Below, one piece after another: positions 9,572-18,801 of a stretch of 64,000 nucleotides of DNA. The notes beneath the pieces were generated by a model. That model was given only the letters and a program-made list of their open reading frames with translations, was not told the DNA's origin and searched no databases. Source of the stretch: Corallococcus sp. AS-1-6 (GTDB lineage Bacteria; Myxococcota; Myxococcia; Myxococcales; Myxococcaceae); assembly GCF_020037015.1 (NCBI RefSeq), contig NZ_JAIQDE010000028.1, positions 62,001-126,000 of the forward strand, given 5' to 3'. Position 1 is the first letter of the stretch, and each line of letters begins with the position of its first letter. The translations under genes and the position numbers were made by a program.

Positions 9572-9976
9572 ATGCCGTCGGCCAAACGTTTCGGGTCGGC
9601 AAGCAAAGGCATGGACAAGAAACTCGCAACCACCATCGGCGCATCCGCACGGGTCGCCCGGGGCCGCATGGAGCTTACGCAGGCCGACGTGGCCGAGCGA
9701 ATCGACGTGGCCACGGAAGTGTACGGCCGCTTGGAACGCGGCGGCATGCTCCCCAGCGTCCAGACCCTGCTGAAGCTGTGCCACGAGCTGCACGTCTCCG
9801 CGGACGAGCTGCTGGGACTCGCGGCGCAGGGCGCTCCGCCGTCGCGCACCAGCGAGGCCCCGCCGCCCACGCCGGAGCGTCCGGAGGTGCGCCGGCTGTT
9901 GCGCAGCGTGCGTCAACTGGACCCCGCCCAGGTGAAGCTGCTGGGCCTGGTGGCCAACGCGCTGACGCGGCGGTAG
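9572..9976 (+). CDS. XRE-family helix-turn-helix regulator
   Basis: This is a small cytoplasmic DNA-binding protein of 134 residues. The lambda-repressor-like HTH covers about residues 18-75 (ELTQADVAERIDVATEVYGRLERG), followed by a Pro-rich linker and a short helical C-terminus (RLLRSVRQLDPAQVKLLGLVANAL). ATG 9572 and ATG 9611 are both possible starts; neither has a strong ribosome site, and the shorter form (MDKKLATTIG) keeps the full HTH. The gene is monocistronic and ends 18 bases before the converging hybrid-kinase gene. It uses the more A/T-tolerant start region of the preceding gap. Targets are unknown. Confidence 0.88.
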   Translation: MPSAKRFGSASKGMDKKLATTIGASARVARGRMELTQADVAERIDVATEVYGRLERGGMLPSVQTLLKLCHELHVSADELLGLAAQGAPPSRTSEAPPPTPERPEVRRLLRSVRQLDPAQVKLLGLVANALTRR

Positions 9977-9994: not shown

Positions 9995-11527
9995 TCAGAG
10001 GTTCGACAGGACGCGGTCCAGGTCCGCGGGCCGCACCGGCTTGGTGAGGTGCACGTCGAACCCGGCCTTCAGGGCCTGCTGGTAGGTGTCCGCGTCGCCG
10101 TAGCCGCTGAGCGCCACCAGCCGCAGGTTCTGCCCCACGCGCGCGCGCAGCGTCCGCGCCACCTGGAAGCCGTCCAGCCCCGGCAGGCCAATGTCCACCA
10201 GCGCCAGGTCCGGCGCGTGCTCCATGGCCAGCTCCACGCCCCGCACGCCGTCCTGGGCCACCGCCACCTGGTGACCCCACAGCTCCAGCAGGTCGCGCAT
10301 GGACTGGCGCGCGTCCGAGTTGTCCTCCACCAGGAGGATGCGCCGCGCGCGCCGCGCGTCCAGCAGGTTCGTCCCCGTCACCTGGGGGACCCGGTCCGCG
10401 GGGAGCAGGGGCAGCCGCACGACGAACTCGCTGCCCTGGCCCGGGCCGCCGCTGGCCGCCTCCACGCTGCCGCCGTGCATCCGCACCAGCGTGCGCACCA
10501 GCGTGAGGCCAATGCCCAGCCCCCCGCGCGAGCGCTCCAGCGAGGTGTCCGCCTGGGCGAACAGCTCGAACATGGCGGGCAGCTTCTCCGGCGAGATACC
10601 GATGCCGGTGTCCTTCACCCGCAGCACCGCCTGCGCGTTGCCGTCCACGCCCTCCTGGAACAGGTCGATGGTGACGCTGCCCTCGTCCGTGTACTTGGCC
10701 GCGTTGTCCACCAGGTTGGTGAAGACCTGCTCCAGGCGCGTGGCGTCTCCCTCCAGCCACAGCGGCGCGCGGGGCAGGTGGACCTCCAGCTTCAGGCCGC
10801 GCGACTCCACGCGGGGGCGCAGGATGGCGAGGAGCTGCTGGAAGGTGGCCGTCAGGCTCACCGGCTCCTTGCGCAGCTCCACCTTGCCCCGGGTGATGCG
10901 GCTGACGTCCAGCAGGTCATCCACCAGCCGCGCCAGGTGGTGCGTCTGGCGCTGGATGATGCCGTGCATCCGCGCCTCCTTGGTGTCCGAGGGCGCCTTG
11001 CGCTCCAGGATGCCAATGGCCGTCATGATGGCGGCCAGCGGGTTGCGCAGCTCGTGGGCCAGCATGGCCAGGAACTCGTCCTTGCGCCGGTCCATCTCGA
11101 TGAGCTGATCCGTGCGCAGCCGGGCCTGCTGCTCCGCGTGGCGCAGGCGCAGCAGCGAGCGCACCGTGGCGATGAGCTCCGACGGCTCGTAGGGCTGGGT
11201 GAGGTACGCGTCCGCGCCGCCCTCCAGGCCCTGCACCTTCTTGTCCGGCGTGACGAACGTCGCGGACGTGTGCATCACCGCGATGGAGGCCGTGGCCGAG
11301 TTGGCCCTCAGCCGCGCGCAGACCTCATAGCCGCTGATGTCCGGCAGCTTCACGTCCAGGACGATGACGTCCGGGCGGTGCTCCTCGGCGATGAGGAGCG
11401 CCGCCATGCCGGTGGCCGCCTCCAGCACGTGGTAGCCGGACATCTCCAGGATGCGGTTGACCAGGTAGCGGTTGGCCTCGTCGTCGTTGACGTTGAGGAC
11501 CGTCGCCAGACGCGCCTCCTCAGCCAC
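9995..11527 (-). CDS. Hybrid histidine kinase: receiver-HisKA-HATPase-receiver
   Basis: This 510-residue soluble kinase has an N-terminal receiver (about 5-125, phospho-acceptor D58), a HisKA domain with H158 in LAMLAHELRNP, an HATPase domain (about 265-380: NLVDNAAKY, DTGIGI, GLGIGL) and a C-terminal receiver (about 395-508, ALVDIGLPG). The first receiver is atypical: the conserved lysine before the YxP turn is glutamine (YLTQPYEP, Q111), so it may respond weakly or not at all to phosphorylation. No membrane segment is present. It is the last gene of a four-gene operon and overlaps the preceding hybrid-kinase gene by eight bases, implying translational coupling and a shared phosphorelay. Confidence 0.92.
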   Translation of the reverse strand: MAEEARLATVLNVNDDEANRYLVNRILEMSGYHVLEAATGMAALLIAEEHRPDVIVLDVKLPDISGYEVCARLRANSATASIAVMHTSATFVTPDKKVQGLEGGADAYLTQPYEPSELIATVRSLLRLRHAEQQARLRTDQLIEMDRRKDEFLAMLAHELRNPLAAIMTAIGILERKAPSDTKEARMHGIIQRQTHHLARLVDDLLDVSRITRGKVELRKEPVSLTATFQQLLAILRPRVESRGLKLEVHLPRAPLWLEGDATRLEQVFTNLVDNAAKYTDEGSVTIDLFQEGVDGNAQAVLRVKDTGIGISPEKLPAMFELFAQADTSLERSRGGLGIGLTLVRTLVRMHGGSVEAASGGPGQGSEFVVRLPLLPADRVPQVTGTNLLDARRARRILLVEDNSDARQSMRDLLELWGHQVAVAQDGVRGVELAMEHAPDLALVDIGLPGLDGFQVARTLRARVGQNLRLVALSGYGDADTYQQALKAGFDVHLTKPVRPADLDRVLSNL

Positions 11528-13568
11528 GGGGGTTCACCTCGCGCACGTCCCGGTTCCCCAGCCCCGCCTTGGACAGGGCGTCGCGGATGCGGGTGATGGC
11601 CACCTCCCGGCTGAGCGTGTGCTTGGCCAGGATGGCGGAGGTCTCACGCGCCAGCCGCTGGCGCTCCGCCTCCTGCAACTGGTGGGAGGTGTGCAGGATG
11701 ATGGGGATGTCGCGCGTGCGCGGGTCCGCCTTCAGCTCGTCCAGCACGTCGAAGGCGGTGATGTCCGGCAGCACGAAGTCCAGGAGGATGAGGTGCGGGG
11801 CGTTCTCACGGGCGATGCGGACGCCCTCGCGGCCGTTGGACGCCTCCAGCAGGTGGAAGGGCGTGTCCTTGAGCAGTTGCTTGAGCAGGTAGCGGTGCAC
11901 GTCGTCGTCGTCGATGATGAGCAGCCGCTCCACCGGCCCGGTGCGCGCCATGGCGGCCAGCTTCTTCTGCAGGCGCACCTCGTCCACGGGCTTGAGCCAG
12001 AACTCGTCCGCGCCCAGGGCGCGCGCCTTCTGCTCGCGGTCCGTCACGGTGACGACGAGGATGGGGATGTCGCGCGTCTGCTCCCCGTTCTTCATCTCCG
12101 CGAGGAAGCTCCAGCTCGTCTCGCCCTCCAGCATCACGTCCAGCACCATGGCCGCGGGGCGCACGCGCTGCATCACCTTGCGCGCGTCCTCCACGCTGCG
12201 CACGGGCAGCACCTGGAAGCCGGAGCGCGCCAGGTACTTCTCGTAGAGGAAGAGCGTCTGGCGGTCGTCCTCCAGCACCAGCACCGGGGCGCGCGAGGGG
12301 TCCAGCTTCTCGCTGCGCTGGGTGAGCCCCGTCATCTCCGAGACCTCCGGGTGGACGCGCGGCAGGGTGATGACGAAGGTGGAGCCCTCCCCCAGCCGGC
12401 TCTGCACGGTGAGCGTGCCGCCCAAAAGCTCCGTCAGCTTGCGCGCCAGGGGCAGGCCCAGGCCGGTGCCCTTCACGCGCCGCTGCAGGGGGCTGTCCAC
12501 CTGGATGAACTCCTCGAAGACGCGGTCGTGGTTCTCCGGCGCGATGCCGATGCCCGTGTCCTTCACGGTGAACACCACCGTGTCGCGCGGGCCCGGGGCC
12601 GCGGACACCGTGACGGCGCCGGACTCGGTGAACTTGAGCGCGTTGGAGATGAGGTTGCGCATCACCTGGCTGAGCTTGGCCTCGTCCGTCTCCAGCTCCA
12701 GGGGCTCCGCCGGCTCCACGAAGTCGAGCGCCACCGTCGAGTCCGGCGGCAGCAGGGGCCGCGTCATGCCGCGCAGCGCGCTGATGAGGTCGGACGCGAC
12801 GAAGCGGCTGTGGCGCAGCGTCGTCTTGCCGGACTCCACCTTGGACAGGTCCAGGAGGTCGTTGACCAGCTCGAAGAGGGCCTCCGCGGAGCCGCGGATG
12901 AACTGGACCTGCTTCTCCTGCTCCGGCGCGAGGCTGCCGTTGAGCGGGTTGAGCAGCACCTTGGACAGCCCGAGGATGGAGTGCAGCGGCGTGCGGAACT
13001 CGTGGCTCACGTTGGCCACCACGCGGCTCTTGATTTCGGACGCGCGCAGGAGGCTCTCCGCCTTCTCGTCCAGGGCGGCGTGCAGGCTGCGCACGCCCTT
13101 GTTGGACTCCTCCAGCTCGCGGTTGAGGCGGGCCAGCTCCTCCGCGCGGCGCTTGAGTTCGTGCTGCTGGCGCTCCGTCTCGCGGTGGAGCGCGGACAGC
13201 TCTCCCAGGGTGGTGCTCACCTGGGTGAGCGCGGCGCCGTAGTCCTCCGGCACCAGGCTGCCCACCAGCGCGATGCCGCCCTCGTGCGGCCGGGCGCGGA
13301 AGGCGAACGCCGCGGGCTGGTGCTGGCTCTGGAGGATGAGCTCCCAGCCGTCCACGGCCTCGTCGCGCGCCTGCACGAGCAGCTTCTCCACCTTGCTCTC
13401 GCTGCCGGGGCTCGCCAGGTCCTTCAGCGCCTGTCCGGGCTTGACGCCCAGGATGCGCGCGGCGCGCTCATCGCGCCAGACGACCGTCCCTTGCGCATCG
13501 CAGGCCAACGCCAGCTCGCGGCTGAGGGATTCGAAGATCCCGGAGGCGCGGTCATCTTCCTTCATCAT
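11520..13568 (-). CDS. Hybrid histidine kinase: PAS-like, coiled coil, HisKA, HATPase, two receivers
   Basis: The protein has 682 residues. A PAS-like sensor covers about residues 8-110, a coiled coil 120-180 and HisKA has H189 (VANVSHEFRTP). The HATPase domain (about 295-415) is followed by two receivers, one at about 435-555 (VLEDDRQ, MVLDVMLEG, LKPVDE) and one at about 560-680 (LIIDDDD, LLDFVLPD, AKH in place of the usual KP). The ATG at 13568 forms an ATGA overlap with the upstream gene, and an in-frame ORF start at 13736 lies inside that gene and is rejected. It is soluble and receives its signal through the PAS-like region or from partner proteins of the operon. Tandem receivers suggest a multistep relay. 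Confidence 0.92.
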   Translation of the reverse strand: MMKEDDRASGIFESLSRELALACDAQGTVVWRDERAARILGVKPGQALKDLASPGSESKVEKLLVQARDEAVDGWELILQSQHQPAAFAFRARPHEGGIALVGSLVPEDYGAALTQVSTTLGELSALHRETERQQHELKRRAEELARLNRELEESNKGVRSLHAALDEKAESLLRASEIKSRVVANVSHEFRTPLHSILGLSKVLLNPLNGSLAPEQEKQVQFIRGSAEALFELVNDLLDLSKVESGKTTLRHSRFVASDLISALRGMTRPLLPPDSTVALDFVEPAEPLELETDEAKLSQVMRNLISNALKFTESGAVTVSAAPGPRDTVVFTVKDTGIGIAPENHDRVFEEFIQVDSPLQRRVKGTGLGLPLARKLTELLGGTLTVQSRLGEGSTFVITLPRVHPEVSEMTGLTQRSEKLDPSRAPVLVLEDDRQTLFLYEKYLARSGFQVLPVRSVEDARKVMQRVRPAAMVLDVMLEGETSWSFLAEMKNGEQTRDIPILVVTVTDREQKARALGADEFWLKPVDEVRLQKKLAAMARTGPVERLLIIDDDDVHRYLLKQLLKDTPFHLLEASNGREGVRIARENAPHLILLDFVLPDITAFDVLDELKADPRTRDIPIILHTSHQLQEAERQRLARETSAILAKHTLSREVAITRIRDALSKAGLGNRDVREVNPRG

Positions 13569-14269
13569 GAGTGCGTCTCCTCCCACGAATCGGGCATCCG
13601 CGCGAGCAGCGTCCGCGCTTCGGGGGGGCCGTCCCGCAGGGCTGCCCTCAGGGCGTCCAGGAGGTGTGCAAGGTTCAGGGGAGACAAACCCCGTTGGGGC
13701 CAGAAGCCCTCGTACCAACGCAGATGCGCATGCCACAGGTCGTCACGGCCCAGGGCGAGCGCATCCGCGAGGTAGGACAACTGGAGGCGCACCTCTTGTT
13801 CCAGGCGGGGGCGGCTTCCGGGGGGCAGCGGACCCTCCGTCCGCCGCACGACCGCGCTGATGATGGCGGCGGCGTCCGCCTCCACGGCGTGTGCGGGGCC
13901 GTCCTTGTAGCGAAGCGCCTGGCGGGCGGACTGGACGTACGCGTGGGGCAGCGAGTCCGGGCCGAAGCCCTCCGCCTGGAGCGCGCGGTCGAGCCCTTCG
14001 AAGTGTTGGTCCAGGTGCAGCGAGCACATGCCTCGCGTGACGAGCAGGGTGCGCAGCCAGCGCGCGTAGTCCTCCAGGATGGCGGGGCGCTCCGCGTCCA
14101 GGGCCTGGACGAGGTAGCGCACGTGGAAGACGGCGTCCTCGTCCCCGAAGCGGCGGGCGCGCGGGAGTCCGTAGCGCGCGGCCCAGAACGGATCCTCGTA
14201 CAAAGCTTGAACGGAAGCGGAAGCGAGCGGCGTGGTCCGCGCTTCCACCTGGAGGCTCACGTGCGACAT
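13565..14269 (-). CDS. Unknown helical protein between B12 module and hybrid kinase
   Basis: I do not recognise this 234-residue protein. It looks soluble and almost entirely alpha-helical, with no signal peptide, membrane helix or cysteine cluster. A conserved-looking segment around residues 78-100 (TRGMCSLHLDQHFEGLDRAL) contains two histidines that might bind a metal or cofactor. Its start is four bases after the B12-module gene ends, and its stop overlaps the hybrid-kinase start by four bases, so the three proteins are made together. By position it could transmit the state of the B12 module to the kinases. That role is inferred from context only. Confidence 0.8.
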   Translation of the reverse strand: MSHVSLQVEARTTPLASASVQALYEDPFWAARYGLPRARRFGDEDAVFHVRYLVQALDAERPAILEDYARWLRTLLVTRGMCSLHLDQHFEGLDRALQAEGFGPDSLPHAYVQSARQALRYKDGPAHAVEADAAAIISAVVRRTEGPLPPGSRPRLEQEVRLQLSYLADALALGRDDLWHAHLRWYEGFWPQRGLSPLNLAHLLDALRAALRDGPPEARTLLARMPDSWEETHS

Positions 14270-14273
14270 GGCG

Positions 14274-15005
14274 TCAGACTCCCAGGATGCGGCAGGTGGA
14301 GGCGACCAGCTCGCGGACGCTCTTGCCGAAGAAGGACACGGCCAGTTCCTCTTCGAGCACGGGGCCCCAGTCGAAGGCGAGTCCGCCCACGGCGATGGGC
14401 AGGGCCGGAGACACCTCGCGCACCTTGCGCACGGCCTCGCGGACCTGGGGCATGTGGAAGGGCATGGTGACGGAGAGGGCCAGCAGGTCGGGCGGGGACT
14501 CGCGCACCATGCGGGCCAGGTGGTCCGCGGGCACGTTGGCGCCGAGGAAGCGCACGTCGAAGCCGGCCATCTCCAGGAAGTCGCTGGCCATGCGCGCGCC
14601 CACTTCGTGAAGTTCGCGCTCCACGCACGCCATCATCACGATCTTCCCGTTGGACGGGTCGCGGGGCAGGTGGCGGTACAGGTGGGCCAGGACGTACTGG
14701 GAGATGGCGGTGGCCAGGTGCTCCTGGGCCACGGAGATGACGTTCTCCTGCCAGAGCCGGCCGATTTCGTACTGGGCCCCCTGGATGACATCCAGGTGGA
14801 GCTCCTGGAGGGGGACGCCGCACAGCAGGCCCTCGTCCACGAGCAGGCGCAGCGCTTCCTGGCGGTTGCCGGAGAGCTGCGCGGCCAGGTACCGCGCCCG
14901 CAGCGAGTCGATGGCAGGGGTCGTTTGGATCACGTGAGCCGGTAGCGGAAGGGGCAGGGTAGAGACGTTCCAGCTTCCGTTAAACCCCGGAGCGCTCTCC
15001 CGCAT
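14274..15005 (-). CDS. Free-standing cobalamin-binding (CarH-like sensory) protein
   Basis: The 243-residue protein has a four-helix B12-binding cap (about 32-112) and a Rossmann-like B12-binding domain (about 118-240). The cap carries W85, nine residues, then E95-H96, the W-x9-EH arrangement of the CarH/LitR adenosylcobalamin photoreceptors. The Rossmann domain has E131-L-H133-E-V-G136, matching the ExHxxG lower-ligand motif, and a later GG pair. Unlike CarH there is no MerR DNA-binding domain, and the residue after the tryptophan is Gln rather than the His that ligates cobalt after illumination in CarH. The start at 15005 has no clear ribosome site; an in-frame GTG about 24 codons later is an alternative. 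It heads the operon with two hybrid kinases. Confidence 0.88.
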   Translation of the reverse strand: MRESAPGFNGSWNVSTLPLPLPAHVIQTTPAIDSLRARYLAAQLSGNRQEALRLLVDEGLLCGVPLQELHLDVIQGAQYEIGRLWQENVISVAQEHLATAISQYVLAHLYRHLPRDPSNGKIVMMACVERELHEVGARMASDFLEMAGFDVRFLGANVPADHLARMVRESPPDLLALSVTMPFHMPQVREAVRKVREVSPALPIAVGGLAFDWGPVLEEELAVSFFGKSVRELVASTCRILGV

Positions 15006-15221
15006 CCGGAATCGAACAGTCCCCAGTCCCGAGGAGCGAACGGTTGTTTTTCTGCTTGCAGGTCAAGCGAACTCCCGGGTGGGGCGCACGGAAGCCGGGA
15101 ATTCCCGGCCCGGGGTGGCCGGGGTGGGTGGAAACGGGGTAGGGACGCCGCTTTCGTCAAAGGGCCGGTGACAGATTTCCGGGGCACCGGTGTTCCCCTG
15201 GCCAACCGGGAGGCGTGCGCG

Positions 15222-15701
15222 GTGTCCGTCGATGTGGAGGCCTATTACCGACGCTATGGGCCCCAGGTGCTCCGGCGCTGCCGCTTCCTGCTGCGCGACG
15301 AGGAACAGGCCGTGGACGCCATGCATGACGTGTTCGTTCAACTGCTGCGCTACCAGGCCGCGCTGAAGGACGCCGGGCCCTCCAGCCTGCTGCATCAGAT
15401 CGCCACCCGCGTGTGCCTCAACCGCCTCCGCGGCGCGAAGCGGCGCCCCGAGGACCGCGACGATGAGCTGGTGCTCCGCATCGCCGCGTCCGGCGACACC
15501 GAGGCGCGCACCGCCGCCCGGGGCCTCCTGGACCGCCTCTTCGGCCGCGTCCCCGCGTCCAGCCGCGACATCGCCGTGCTCCACCTGGTGGACGGCATGA
15601 CGCTGGAGGAGACCGCCCGCGAGGTGGGCCTGTCCGTGTCCGGAGTGCGCAAGCGCCTCCGGGCCCTGTCCGCTGTCCTGCAGGAGCTGGAGGCCGCATG
15701 A
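15222..15701 (+). CDS. ECF-type RNA polymerase sigma factor
   Basis: This 159-residue sigma-70-family factor has region 2 at about residues 5-70 (YYRRYGPQVLRRCRFLLRD, AVDAMHDVFVQLLR) and region 4 at about 100-155 (LDRLFGRVPASSRDIAVLHLVDGMTLEETAREVGLSVSGVRKRL). GTG 15222 is chosen because GGGAGG lies eight bases upstream; an in-frame GTG at 15168 would add 18 residues. The next gene overlaps its stop by four bases and encodes a membrane protein with an anti-sigma layout, so the factor is probably held inactive until an envelope signal arrives. The third gene is an exported caspase-like protease, a probable target of the regulon and part of the same transcript. Confidence 0.92.
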   Translation: MSVDVEAYYRRYGPQVLRRCRFLLRDEEQAVDAMHDVFVQLLRYQAALKDAGPSSLLHQIATRVCLNRLRGAKRRPEDRDDELVLRIAASGDTEARTAARGLLDRLFGRVPASSRDIAVLHLVDGMTLEETAREVGLSVSGVRKRLRALSAVLQELEAA

Positions 15702-16540
15702 CGTCCCCCCACCGCACCCCGGACTGGCTGCTGGAGCGAATCGCCCTGGGAGAGCTGCCCCCGGACGAGCTCGCCGCCGCCCGCGACCGCCTGTCCCGCG
15801 AACCGGACGGCCCCGCCCGCCTCGCCGCCCTGGAGGCCGACTCGCGCGCCACCCTGGAGGCCCTGCCCCCTGACCGCGTCGCCCGCGAGGTGCAGGCCCG
15901 CTTCGCCCGCGCCGGCTCGCCCGCCGCCACGCCCCGCGCCGAGGCCCCTCCGTCGCGCCCTTCCTGGCGCTTCCTGCCCGCCCTGGTGCCGGTGCTCGCC
16001 GCCGCGACCCTCGTCGTCCTCGTGCGGCCGGGGGCGTCGTCCCAGCAGCAGGAGGCGCGCGACCCCTGGGCGGCGACGGGCACCCCCGGCGTCCTGGAGC
16101 CCACGCGCAGCAAGGGGCTTCAGCCCCGGCTCGACGTGCACCGCCAGGCCGGCACCCGCACCGAGCACCTCACCGACGGCGCCCCCGCCCAGGCCGGTGA
16201 CGTGGTGCAGTTGTCGTACACCGCCGCCGGCCACGCCCACGGCGTCATCCTCTCCGTGGATGGCCGGGGCACCGTCACCCCGCACCTGCCCGCGCTGGGG
16301 GACACGTCCGCGCCCCTGGAGCGCGGCGGCTCGCACCTCCTGCCCCGCGCCTACGAGCTGGACGACGCCCCCGGCTTCGAGCGCTTCTTCCTCGTCACCT
16401 CGGACGCCGCCTTCGACCTGGAGGGCGTGATGGCCGCCGCGCGCGTGCTCGCCGCGTCCCCCGAGGCGCGCACCGCGCCGCTGACCCTGCCCGCGGGCCT
16501 GGGCCAGACCTCCTTCCTGCTGGAGAAGCCCTCCCCATGA
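15698..16540 (+). CDS. Putative anti-sigma factor with periplasmic DUF4384-like domain
   Basis: This 280-residue protein begins with a helical cytosolic segment (about 1-75; PDWLLERIALGELPPDE resembles zinc-less anti-sigma N-termini). A Pro-rich linker and one membrane helix at about 92-110 (FLPALVPVLAAATLVVLV) follow. The C-terminal periplasmic domain, about 135-275, has the AGDVVQLSY, HGVILSVDGRGTVTPHLP and LPRAYELDDAPGFERFFLVTS segments characteristic of DUF4384. DUF4384 is often found with caspase-like domains. Here it sits between the sigma factor and the caspase gene with four-base overlaps on both sides. The likely job is to sequester the sigma factor and sense the envelope. It lacks the HxxxCxxC zinc motif of ZAS anti-sigma factors. 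Confidence 0.8.
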   Translation: MTSPHRTPDWLLERIALGELPPDELAAARDRLSREPDGPARLAALEADSRATLEALPPDRVAREVQARFARAGSPAATPRAEAPPSRPSWRFLPALVPVLAAATLVVLVRPGASSQQQEARDPWAATGTPGVLEPTRSKGLQPRLDVHRQAGTRTEHLTDGAPAQAGDVVQLSYTAAGHAHGVILSVDGRGTVTPHLPALGDTSAPLERGGSHLLPRAYELDDAPGFERFFLVTSDAAFDLEGVMAAARVLAASPEARTAPLTLPAGLGQTSFLLEKPSP

Positions 16541-18801
16541 GAGCGCTCGTCATCCTCCTGTTCACGCTGGGCGCGGCCACCCCCGCGCGCGCCGCCGAGG
16601 CCGCGCCCGTGCGCCGGCTGGCCCTGCTCGTGGGCGTCAACGACGGCGGCCCGGAGCGCGTGCGGCTGCGCTACGCGGAGACGGACGCGAAGGCCTTCTC
16701 CACGGTGCTGTCAGAGCTGGGCGGCGTGCTGCCCCAGGACCGCGTGCTCCTCACGGACGTGGACCGCGCGGGCGTGCTCGCCGGCTTCGACCGCGTGCGC
16801 CGCCTGGCGGAGGGCGTCCGCACCGCGGGGGCCCGCCGCGTGGAGGTGCTGCTGTACTACTCCGGCCACTCGGACGACGAGGGGCTGCTGCTCAAGGGCC
16901 AGCGCCTGGACTACGGCGAGCTGCGCCGCTCACTGGAGGGGCTGCCCGCGGACGTGCGCATCGCGGTGCTGGACTCGTGCGCGTCCGGCGCGTTCGCGCG
17001 CAAGAAGGGCGGCGTCTCGCGGCCCGCGTTCCTGGTGGACTCCGCCATCCAGGTGAAGGGCCACGCCATCCTCACCTCGTCCAGCGCGGACGAGGCGTCG
17101 CAGGAGTCGGACCGGCTGGGCGGCTCGTTCTTCACGCACCACCTGCTGTCCGGCCTGCGAGGCGCCGCGGACGTCACCCACGACGGCCGCGTCACCCTCA
17201 CGGAGGCCTACCAGTTCGCCTTCCACGAGACGCTCTCGCGCACCGAGCGCACGCAGGGCGGCGCGCAGCACCCCAACTACGACATCGAGCTCGCCGGCAC
17301 CGGCGACCTGGTGATGACCGACCTGCGCGCCACCACCGCGGGCCTGGTCCTCACCGAGCCGCTGGAGGGCCGCCTGTATGTTCGCGACGCGGTGGGCACG
17401 CTGGTGGTGGAGGTGCAGAAGCAGTCCGGCCGCGCCACCGAGCTGGGCCTGGCCCCCGGCGCCTACCGCGCCCGGCGCGAGTGGGACGGCGGCGTGTCCG
17501 AGGCGGCCTTCACGCTGAAGGAGGGCATGCGCACGCCGCTCGCGCCCGGCGACTTCCTGGGCGTGGGCCACGAGGCCACCGTGATGCGCGGCGGTGGCGG
17601 CGGCATGTCCTTGTCTCCGCAGGGGCGCGTCCAACTGCCGGTGAACCTGAGCCTGGTGCCGTCGATGAGCACCAACACGCTGCGGGCGGGCCGCGCGCCG
17701 GTGGAGAACCGCTTCGCGCTGGGCATCGTCAACGGCGGCGCGGCGCTGGGCGGCGGCCTGGCGCTGGGCCTGGCGGGCAACGTGTACGACGCGGAGGTGG
17801 CCGGCCTGGCGCTGGCGCTGGGCTTCAACACGTCCGGCGGCGACGTGGACGGCGGCCAGTTGTCGCTGGTCACCAACGTGGCGGGCGGCGCGGTGCGCGG
17901 TGCCCAGGCGTCGCTGGGGCTCAACGTGGCCAACGGGGACGTGGACGGTATCGGGCAGTGGGCCCTGGGCGCCAACGTGGCGCGCGGCGCGCTGGGCGGC
18001 GTGCAGGCGGCGCTGGGCGCCAACGTCACCACGGTGGACGCCACCGGGGTGCAGTTGTCACTGGGTGTCAATCACGCCAACGGCACCCTGAAGGGCGTGC
18101 AGTTCACGCTGGGCGCCAACTCCGTGACGACGGCCGCGCGGGGCATCCAGGGGGCGGTGCTGCTCAACCGCGCGCCGTCCCTCACCGGCATGCAGTTGGG
18201 GTTGATCAACGTGGGCGGCGACGTGTCCGGCATGCAGTTGGGGTTGATCAACGTCGCGGACACGGTGCACGGCATGCAGTTGGGGCTGGTCAACGTCTCC
18301 GACGAGGTGAGCGGCGTGCCGGTGGGCCTGGTCTCCTACGAGAAGAAGGGCCAACTGCACCTGGAGCTGTTCGGCAGCGACGTGCAGCTCACCAACCTGG
18401 CGCTGAAGTTCGGCGGCAGGCACTTCTACACGACGCTGCTCGCGGGCATCGGCCCGGACGACCGCTTCCAGCGCTTCAGCCTGGGGCTGGGCCTGGGCGG
18501 GCACATCCCGCTGGGCTCGCGCTTCTGGGTGGACGTGGACGTCGCGGCCAGCCAGGTGCTGTCCACGCGGGATCCGTTCTCCAGCGCGTCCAACACCCTG
18601 CTGTCCCAGGCGCGCGCCATGCTGGGCTTCCAGGTGATGCCCCGGCTGGCCGTGTTCGCCGGCCCCACCTACAACGTGGCCTTCGCCTGGGGCACGCCGG
18701 AGTTCGCGAAGCTGACCACGCTGCCGGTGCGCTCGCACACCCTGGGCACGGACACGCGCATGCAGCGCTGGCCCGGCTTCCAGGTGGGCGTGCGGCTCTG
18801 A
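16537..18801 (+). CDS. Exported caspase-fold (C14) protease fused to surface-repeat domain
   Basis: The protein has 754 residues. A signal peptide (cleavage near ARA-AEA, residue 20) leads into a caspase-like domain at about 25-265, with the catalytic histidine H111 (YYSGHSDDEG) and cysteine C148 (LDSCASGAF), both intact. A beta-rich linker (about 265-390) is followed by about 230 residues of short repeats of the form GxQxxLGxNxxxGxxx. These resemble the LA_2272-type surface repeats and probably form a beta-solenoid. The C-terminal 120 residues (HFYTTLLAGIGPDDRF to VGVRL) look like outer-membrane beta strands. An exported, envelope-bound caspase contrasts with the usual cytosolic ones. It is co-transcribed with the sigma/anti-sigma pair. 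The substrate is unknown. Confidence 0.85.
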   Translation: MRALVILLFTLGAATPARAAEAAPVRRLALLVGVNDGGPERVRLRYAETDAKAFSTVLSELGGVLPQDRVLLTDVDRAGVLAGFDRVRRLAEGVRTAGARRVEVLLYYSGHSDDEGLLLKGQRLDYGELRRSLEGLPADVRIAVLDSCASGAFARKKGGVSRPAFLVDSAIQVKGHAILTSSSADEASQESDRLGGSFFTHHLLSGLRGAADVTHDGRVTLTEAYQFAFHETLSRTERTQGGAQHPNYDIELAGTGDLVMTDLRATTAGLVLTEPLEGRLYVRDAVGTLVVEVQKQSGRATELGLAPGAYRARREWDGGVSEAAFTLKEGMRTPLAPGDFLGVGHEATVMRGGGGGMSLSPQGRVQLPVNLSLVPSMSTNTLRAGRAPVENRFALGIVNGGAALGGGLALGLAGNVYDAEVAGLALALGFNTSGGDVDGGQLSLVTNVAGGAVRGAQASLGLNVANGDVDGIGQWALGANVARGALGGVQAALGANVTTVDATGVQLSLGVNHANGTLKGVQFTLGANSVTTAARGIQGAVLLNRAPSLTGMQLGLINVGGDVSGMQLGLINVADTVHGMQLGLVNVSDEVSGVPVGLVSYEKKGQLHLELFGSDVQLTNLALKFGGRHFYTTLLAGIGPDDRFQRFSLGLGLGGHIPLGSRFWVDVDVAASQVLSTRDPFSSASNTLLSQARAMLGFQVMPRLAVFAGPTYNVAFAWGTPEFAKLTTLPVRSHTLGTDTRMQRWPGFQVGVRL
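18187..18312 (+). repeat. Three tandem 42-bp repeats inside the caspase-repeat gene
   Basis: Three consecutive 42-base units begin GGCATGCAGTTGGGG and encode GMQLGLINVGGDVS, GMQLGLINVADTVH and GMQLGLVNVSDEVS. The first 25 bases of units one and two are nearly identical, so they reflect recent duplication within the longer, more diverged repeat array (protein residues about 430-600). A degenerate fourth unit (GVPVGLVSYE) follows. Copy number here could change by slippage without breaking the frame. Confidence 0.85.

Follow-up and report, generated by a model that had tools for sequence, protein, structure and literature searches.

A conserved myxobacterial operon that may couple a two-subunit photocobilin to two hybrid histidine kinases

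INTRODUCTION

What does a B12-binding module with the signature of a photoreceptor do at the head of an operon that ends in two hybrid histidine kinases? The question is raised by four genes of Corallococcus sp. AS-1-6 (genome, 9.5 Mb) within a 64,000-nucleotide stretch of contig NZ_JAIQDE010000028.1, which is referred to as the window. The genes lie on the minus strand between positions 15005 and 9995, in the order B12 module, 234-amino-acid (aa) protein, first kinase (HK1), and second kinase (HK2). A preliminary description of this DNA had called the first product CarH-like and the second unknown and had proposed a photosensory or B12-sensing module feeding a phosphorelay. Here, we argue that the operon probably encodes a photocobilin split into two subunits, a B12 protein and a globin, that would control a two-kinase phosphorelay.

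RESULTS

Operon layout and gene boundaries

The four genes are as tightly packed as first described (Table 1): 4 nt separate the B12 stop codon from the globin ATG, the globin stop codon and the HK1 ATG (position 13568) overlap by 4 nt, and the HK2 GTG (position 11527) and the end of HK1 (position 11520) overlap by 8 nt. The places assigned to the genes in the operon held, and two starts were revised. HK1 starts at 13568. The longest B12 frame opens with an ATG at 15005 and specifies 243 aa, and residue numbers such as W85, H133, and H162 follow this frame; judged from related sequences, the true start is probably the GTG at 14933, which gives 219 aa. The GTG was preferred because each of the 10 Corallococcus-type sequences examined carries a start codon in this position (GTG in 9 and TTG in 1), and several of them have in-frame stops immediately 5′ of it. 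The operon contains no response regulator gene.

Table 1. Features of the operon in window coordinates, with the evidence for each assignment
Feature	Position	Strand	Evidence
B12 (adenosylcobalamin) module, 219 aa with the probable start	14274..14933	-	Pfam B12-binding_2 and B12-binding; photocobilins nearest among solved structures; conserved start
W-Q-x8-E-H cap motif (W85, Q86, E95, H96)	14718..14753	-	55/55 operon copies
ELHEVG lower-ligand motif (H133)	14598..14615	-	E131 and H133 in 55/55; G136 in 54/55
H162, equivalent of SasPcob His137 (contacts partner monomer's biliverdin)	14520..14522	-	54/55
Predicted tandem bilin-type globin (BBAG/photoglobin-like), 234 aa	13565..14269	-	AlphaFold2 model; structural match to SasPcob biliverdin domain; family-profile match to 8j2x
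N-terminal globin half (residues 1-120; D45, W71, RGMC 79-82)	13910..14269	-	Structure match; alignments
C-terminal globin half (residues 121-234; homologue of N half)	13568..13909	-	hhalign
HK1, 682 aa: N-terminal sensory part, HisKA (H189), HATPase, receivers (D477, D597)	11520..13568	-	Pfam; alignment
HK2, 510 aa: receiver (D58), HisKA (H158), HATPase, receiver (D445)	9995..11527	-	Pfam; alignment

Divergent from the B12 gene, window positions 15168-18801 (plus strand) carry an ECF sigma factor gene together with genes whose products were labeled by eye as a putative anti-sigma protein and a caspase-like protein. Most loci of the Corallococcus and Myxococcus types have these neighbors beside the operon, and the neighbors persist where the B12 and kinase genes have been lost. 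A small XRE-type helix-turn-helix (HTH) gene (9572-9976, plus strand) lies tail-to-tail with HK2 and is kept in many loci.

The B12 protein and its nearest relatives

Pfam found B12-binding_2 (41 bits) and B12-binding (71 bits) in the B12 protein and no HTH, in agreement with the earlier observation that a MerR or other DNA-binding domain is missing. Both motifs on which the preliminary description relied, W-x9-EH and E-x-H-x-x-G, are present as WQENVISVAQEH and ELHEVG, and the alignment columns of W85, Q86, E95, H96, E131, and H133 are invariant. Residue counts for this protein and for the globin were taken from sets of 55 and 59 rows, respectively, each larger than the corresponding alignment, A3 (38 B12 proteins) or A2 (42 globins); rows shorter than 55% of the window protein's length had been dropped. 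In a search of solved chains, the B12 protein matched SasPcob (8j2x; E = 4.9e-29), AbPcob (1.2e-24), and CtMerR (5e-23), with CarH at only ~1e-6 and AerR (7te2) a distant match at 1.5e-5. The name CarH-like therefore fits the photoreceptor signature, but the nearest solved relatives are photocobilins.

The Gln noted at the position of the light-state His ligand of CarH is real and occurs in 55 of 55 operon copies. It had also been taken as a possible sign of altered photochemistry, a suggestion that did not survive comparison with SasPcob, which likewise has WQ and is light-active. The published accounts of SasPcob describe a Gln after the Trp and a light state in which cobalt is ligated by water or hydroxide, without bis-His ligation (PMC10979010, PMC11796333). 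Because SasPcob has this residue pair and this light state, the Gln is by analogy best read as the normal photocobilin state. A CarH-like repressor was considered and was ruled out by the absent DNA-binding domain, the Gln in place of His, and the far closer photocobilin match.

The equivalent of H162 is absent from the host's own CarH, which is encoded separately and has WH, from 10 of 10 B12 paralogues compared, and from AbPcob and CtMerR; the sole exception among the operon copies, at locus L051, has Ser. Other W-x9-EH B12 modules adjoin histidine kinase genes at loci L148 to L152, L155, and L156, where this globin and an H162 equivalent are both missing.

A tandem bilin-type globin encoded beside the B12 gene

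The 234-aa protein had been placed correctly beside the B12 gene and left as unknown; its predicted identity as a bilin-type globin would make it the second half of the sensor. It had no Pfam match and nothing usable in NCBIfam, and phmmer with the single sequence gave no match in the PDB. A family profile (42 members) had its best PDB match in SasPcob (8j2x; E = 5e-4), through the C half, and SasPcob alone fell below E 0.2. An AlphaFold2 model built from 10 sequences reached a pLDDT of 84.9 and a pTM of 0.81. The top row returned for it by a structural aligner was the SasPcob biliverdin domain (Z 16.7; rmsd 1.8 Å over 113 residues; model residues 1-120 to chain residues 227-340), and the remaining rows shown were phycobiliproteins or engineered relatives, one of which bears simply the title "bacterial fluorescent protein." Foldseek gave nothing below E 0.001 for the model (best, 0.3), and the heme globin HBI appeared lower in its list (TM 0.31). 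By sequence alone, the N half matched SasPcob weakly (E 0.0024). The two halves matched each other in hhalign at E = 4e-9 to 8e-10, compared with 0.018 for the best of 40 column shuffles; since the halves are homologous, the protein is a tandem globin, and the profile and the predicted fold mark it as one of bilin type.

Two residues of the N half correspond to chromophore contacts of SasPcob, whose published residue numbers equal the chain index plus 6. D45, kept in 59 of 59 sequences, is the equivalent of Asp270, the main biliverdin contact, and W71, kept in 54 of 59 (4 Ser and 1 gap), is that of Trp296, which touches both biliverdin and corrin; His137, the counterpart of H162 in the B12 protein, contacts the biliverdin bound to the opposite monomer (PMC10979010). 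In the C half, Glu stands at the Asp place in 58 of 59 sequences. The His residues H49 and H85 are invariant or nearly so. The Cys of RGMC varies (44 Cys, 12 Ser, 2 Ala, and 1 gap among 59), and with Cys in only 44 of 59, covalent attachment of a bilin there was ruled out as a requirement.

The two hybrid kinases

Pfam identified HisKA, HATPase, and two receivers in HK1 and two receivers, HisKA, and HATPase in HK2, the domain orders in Table 1 being read from the sequence. The N-terminal region of HK1 had looked PAS-like by eye; Pfam found no PAS match in HK1, and the term is therefore a by-eye label only. Conservation was high in both kinases: in HK1, H189 was kept in 53 of 54 copies, D477 and D597 each in 54 of 54, and N305 (N box) in 52 of 54; in HK2, H158 and N271 (N box) were each kept in 54 of 54, D58 in 53 of 54, and D445 in 52 of 54. 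The first HK2 receiver never has Lys at the conserved-Lys place (43 Gln, 10 Glu, and 1 gap), and the window copy has Gln.

Conservation of the operon across genomes

The globin was found in 60 of the order's 145 genomes (58 of the 115 of good quality), nearly all from one family, and a search of 195 genomes of the phylum with the globin profile found none beyond these 60. With co-occurrence confined almost entirely to one family, these genomes do not count as independent cases. DNA around the globin gene was taken from the other 59 genomes, giving 60 loci because one genome (G068) yielded two contigs. This search for the operon in related genomes, which the preliminary description had suggested, found all four genes in the same order and on the same strand in 52 of 60 loci, including four (L056, L082, L104, and L106) where one gene is broken or shortened or runs off the contig. 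The arrangement is therefore not due to chance, and an order unique to one strain, which would have spoken against the original proposal, is not what the genomes have. Median gaps across loci were 6, -4, and -8 nt, and a TGA stop separates the B12 and globin genes in all nine named relatives that were examined. The genes flanking the operon on either side vary from genus to genus; where genomes are given a genus type here, the label was assigned from kinship and size.

An operon-type B12 protein scoring at least 204 bits was present in 54 of 145 genomes, and a match to the HK1 N terminus was found in those 54 and in no others; genome G123 has a B12 relative only, with no HK1 N-terminus match. 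Outside the 52 loci, four Myxococcus-type genomes have the globin only (L067, L068, L100, and L102), L098 is decaying, HK1 is cut in L096, L110 meets a contig end, and L070 has a decayed globin with the kinases beside it on the other strand. All four W71S globins belong to the four globin-only genomes, which lack the B12 gene and both kinases and may represent one event. Five Myxococcus-type genomes in all retain the globin after loss of the B12 and kinase genes, and for this reason the globin may have another role too.

In the lone globins of the four genomes (G101, G113, G110, and G112), W71S is accompanied by Cys82-to-Ser, and each genome has a single heme oxygenase match rather than two. 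Elsewhere, a genome that also has the split operon (G042) contains a 507-aa globin-B12 fusion frame of the photocobilin type, globin first (L147:5320-6840, plus strand). In G010 (L070:3489-7147), HK1-HK2 lie beside the decayed globin piece and a bilin reductase remnant recognized by eye.

Bilin supply

Heme oxygenase (PF01126) was found in 69 of 145 genomes, comprising every one of the 60 globin genomes and 9 of the 85 that lack the globin. The host genome has two heme oxygenases, one encoded alone and one whose gene overlaps a bacteriophytochrome gene; host heme oxygenase also serves a bacteriophytochrome. At L112:7260-10742 (plus strand) of the same genome, genes for heme oxygenase, a bacteriophytochrome kinase, and a receiver-like protein (the last by eye) lie in a row. 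A search for bilin reductase (PF05996) gave no match in the host genome and matches in 2 of 145 genomes. In the divergent genome G128, a ferredoxin-dependent bilin reductase gene lies between the globin gene and HK1, and the B12, globin, reductase, HK1, and HK2 genes all overlap; this operon joins the published B12-globin-reductase cluster with kinases. In G135 (L144:5662-11250), bilin reductase and heme oxygenase genes are adjacent, with a weak globin-profile match (E 6e-4) on the opposite strand about 3.5 kb away.

DISCUSSION

A split photocobilin and the alternatives

The proposal that a photosensory or B12-sensing module feeds a phosphorelay stands insofar as a module with a photoreceptor signature is joined to kinases in a conserved order; its kinship is with photocobilins rather than with CarH. 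That the operon probably encodes a two-subunit photocobilin in control of the kinases is argued from homology, the predicted globin fold, residue and operon conservation, and bilin-making genes that are present in the genomes and, once, in the operon. From these we infer chromophore binding, docking, which way light acts, an interaction with HK1, and the output, as follows. In the dark, the B12 protein, probably a dimer, would hold adenosylcobalamin base-off/His-on, with H133 below and with W85, E95, and H96 surrounding the adenosyl group. The N half of the globin would carry a biliverdin-type bilin via D45 and W71 and would dock on the B12 protein so that H162 reaches the bilin; a joint fold of the two proteins was a low-confidence model (pLDDT 67; pTM 0.52) that matched SasPcob over both domains at an rmsd of 14.6-16 Å and did not reproduce the SasPcob docking. 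The bilin would be a red-light antenna and the cobalamin would absorb green light, and either route would break the Co-C bond. The adenosyl group would then leave, cobalt would take water and not a second His (Gln being there), and the assembly would rearrange. The rearranged B12-globin complex may bind or release the N-terminal part of HK1, and the altered contact would change H189 autophosphorylation and the flow through the HK1 and HK2 receivers to an unlinked response regulator.

A simpler photoreceptor, in which green light acting on B12 drives HK1 and the globin is a bilin-independent structural adaptor, would accommodate the variable RGMC Cys and the Glu at the Asp place of the C half (58/59). 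In AbDPcob, a weak biliverdin binder, the globin has been suggested to be an adaptor, and the protein works at ~20% biliverdin occupancy (PMC10979010). We nevertheless regard this arrangement as unlikely, given the retention of D45 (59/59), W71 (54/59), and H162 (54/55); in AbPcob, by contrast, both the Asp (PMC10979010) and the His equivalent are lost. Heme oxygenase in every globin genome and bilin reductase within the G128 operon also speak against it. B12 itself is less likely than light to be the signal. Other B12 modules have non-light roles as well, and these, with the Gln in place of the CarH light-state His, are what might favor a sensor of cobalamin or of redox or oxygen status, in which adenosylcobalamin occupancy sets kinase activity. 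Such a sensor is nonetheless quite improbable, since the adenosyl-holding cap motif, invariant in 55 of 55 copies, is the published signature of light response (PMC11796333), SasPcob is light-active with the same Gln, and a bilin-type globin would be needless for pure B12 sensing.

Two further readings have little in their favor. Nearly all cases lie within one family, and the four genes might be together by family history alone; this seems very improbable when the genes are tight or overlapping in 52 of 60 loci, the B12 gene and the HK1 N terminus are both gone in 5 of 5 Myxococcus-type losses, the same order recurs with an extra bilin gene in the divergent G128, and the flanking neighbors vary between genera. 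The chance is slimmer still that the globin, with its fold and its nearly invariant H49 and H85, binds heme or O2 as a heme or gas sensor to which the B12 protein is accessory: the structural matches shown were bilin globins, with HBI lower in the Foldseek list, and the gene is linked to B12, heme oxygenase, and bilin reductase genes.

Within the favored split-photocobilin interpretation, a more specific idea is possible rather than probable: the dedicated bilin protein, a tandem globin with maybe two bilins, would be a separate antenna for the B12 switch; red light would then break the Co-C bond in the neighboring protein and send an irreversible, dose-counting signal into the phosphorelay, and this would be the role of the BBAG globins. 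In the cited papers, the demonstrated outputs of B12 photoreceptors are DNA (CarH) and a diguanylate cyclase (AbDPcob), to which a phosphorelay would be added. If the interpretation is correct, the BBAG globins, bilin-binding proteins described in 2023, would gain a testable function, photocobilins could exist as separate subunits, and split photocobilins would be useful for two-part red/green optogenetic switches.

Comparison with known systems

CarH (PMC9304148; 5c8d) has the W-x9-EH cap and the E-x-H-x-x-G motif in common with the operon B12 protein but differs in its MerR domain, its DNA output, and the His after the Trp, where the operon protein has no MerR domain and a Gln. AerR resembles the operon protein in binding B12 without a DNA-binding domain. 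It is a short protein that acts via partners, and the partner known for it is a transcription factor rather than a globin or a kinase.

Myxococcales globins, some with RGMC, have been associated with B12-binding proteins and with heme oxygenase, the function of BBAGs being given as not known, and two BBAG-2 proteins (RGMC globins) bind biliverdin, the holoproteins alone being photoinert (PMC10151467). The operon globin shares with BBAG-2 and related Myxococcales globins the RGMC motif, a B12-binding neighbor, heme oxygenase in the genome, and an origin in Myxococcales, and, compared by description only, it is very likely of the same family; a bilin reductase gene adjoins those of the tested BBAG-2 proteins and is missing from the window operon. 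The main text of that paper mentions no histidine kinase or response regulator with these globins. The pairing of B12 protein and globin in Myxococcales is thus already published (PMC10151467), and no report linking this pair to kinases was found in searches of openly available papers or in the main texts of PMC10151467, PMC10979010, PMC8156234, and PMC9304148.

The photocobilins SasPcob and AbDPcob share with the operon the W-x9-EH and E/D-x-H motifs and a biliverdin-type globin (PMC10979010), and SasPcob adds Asp270, Trp296, His137, and the Gln at the light-His place, all of which have equivalents in the operon proteins. The candidate output here is a pair of hybrid histidine kinases, whereas the main text of PMC10979010 mentions no kinase; a separate photocobilin can regulate an enzyme via protein contact (PMC10979010). 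The published photocobilins are single chains with one globin domain, whereas in the operon the B12 protein and a tandem globin are encoded by separate genes.
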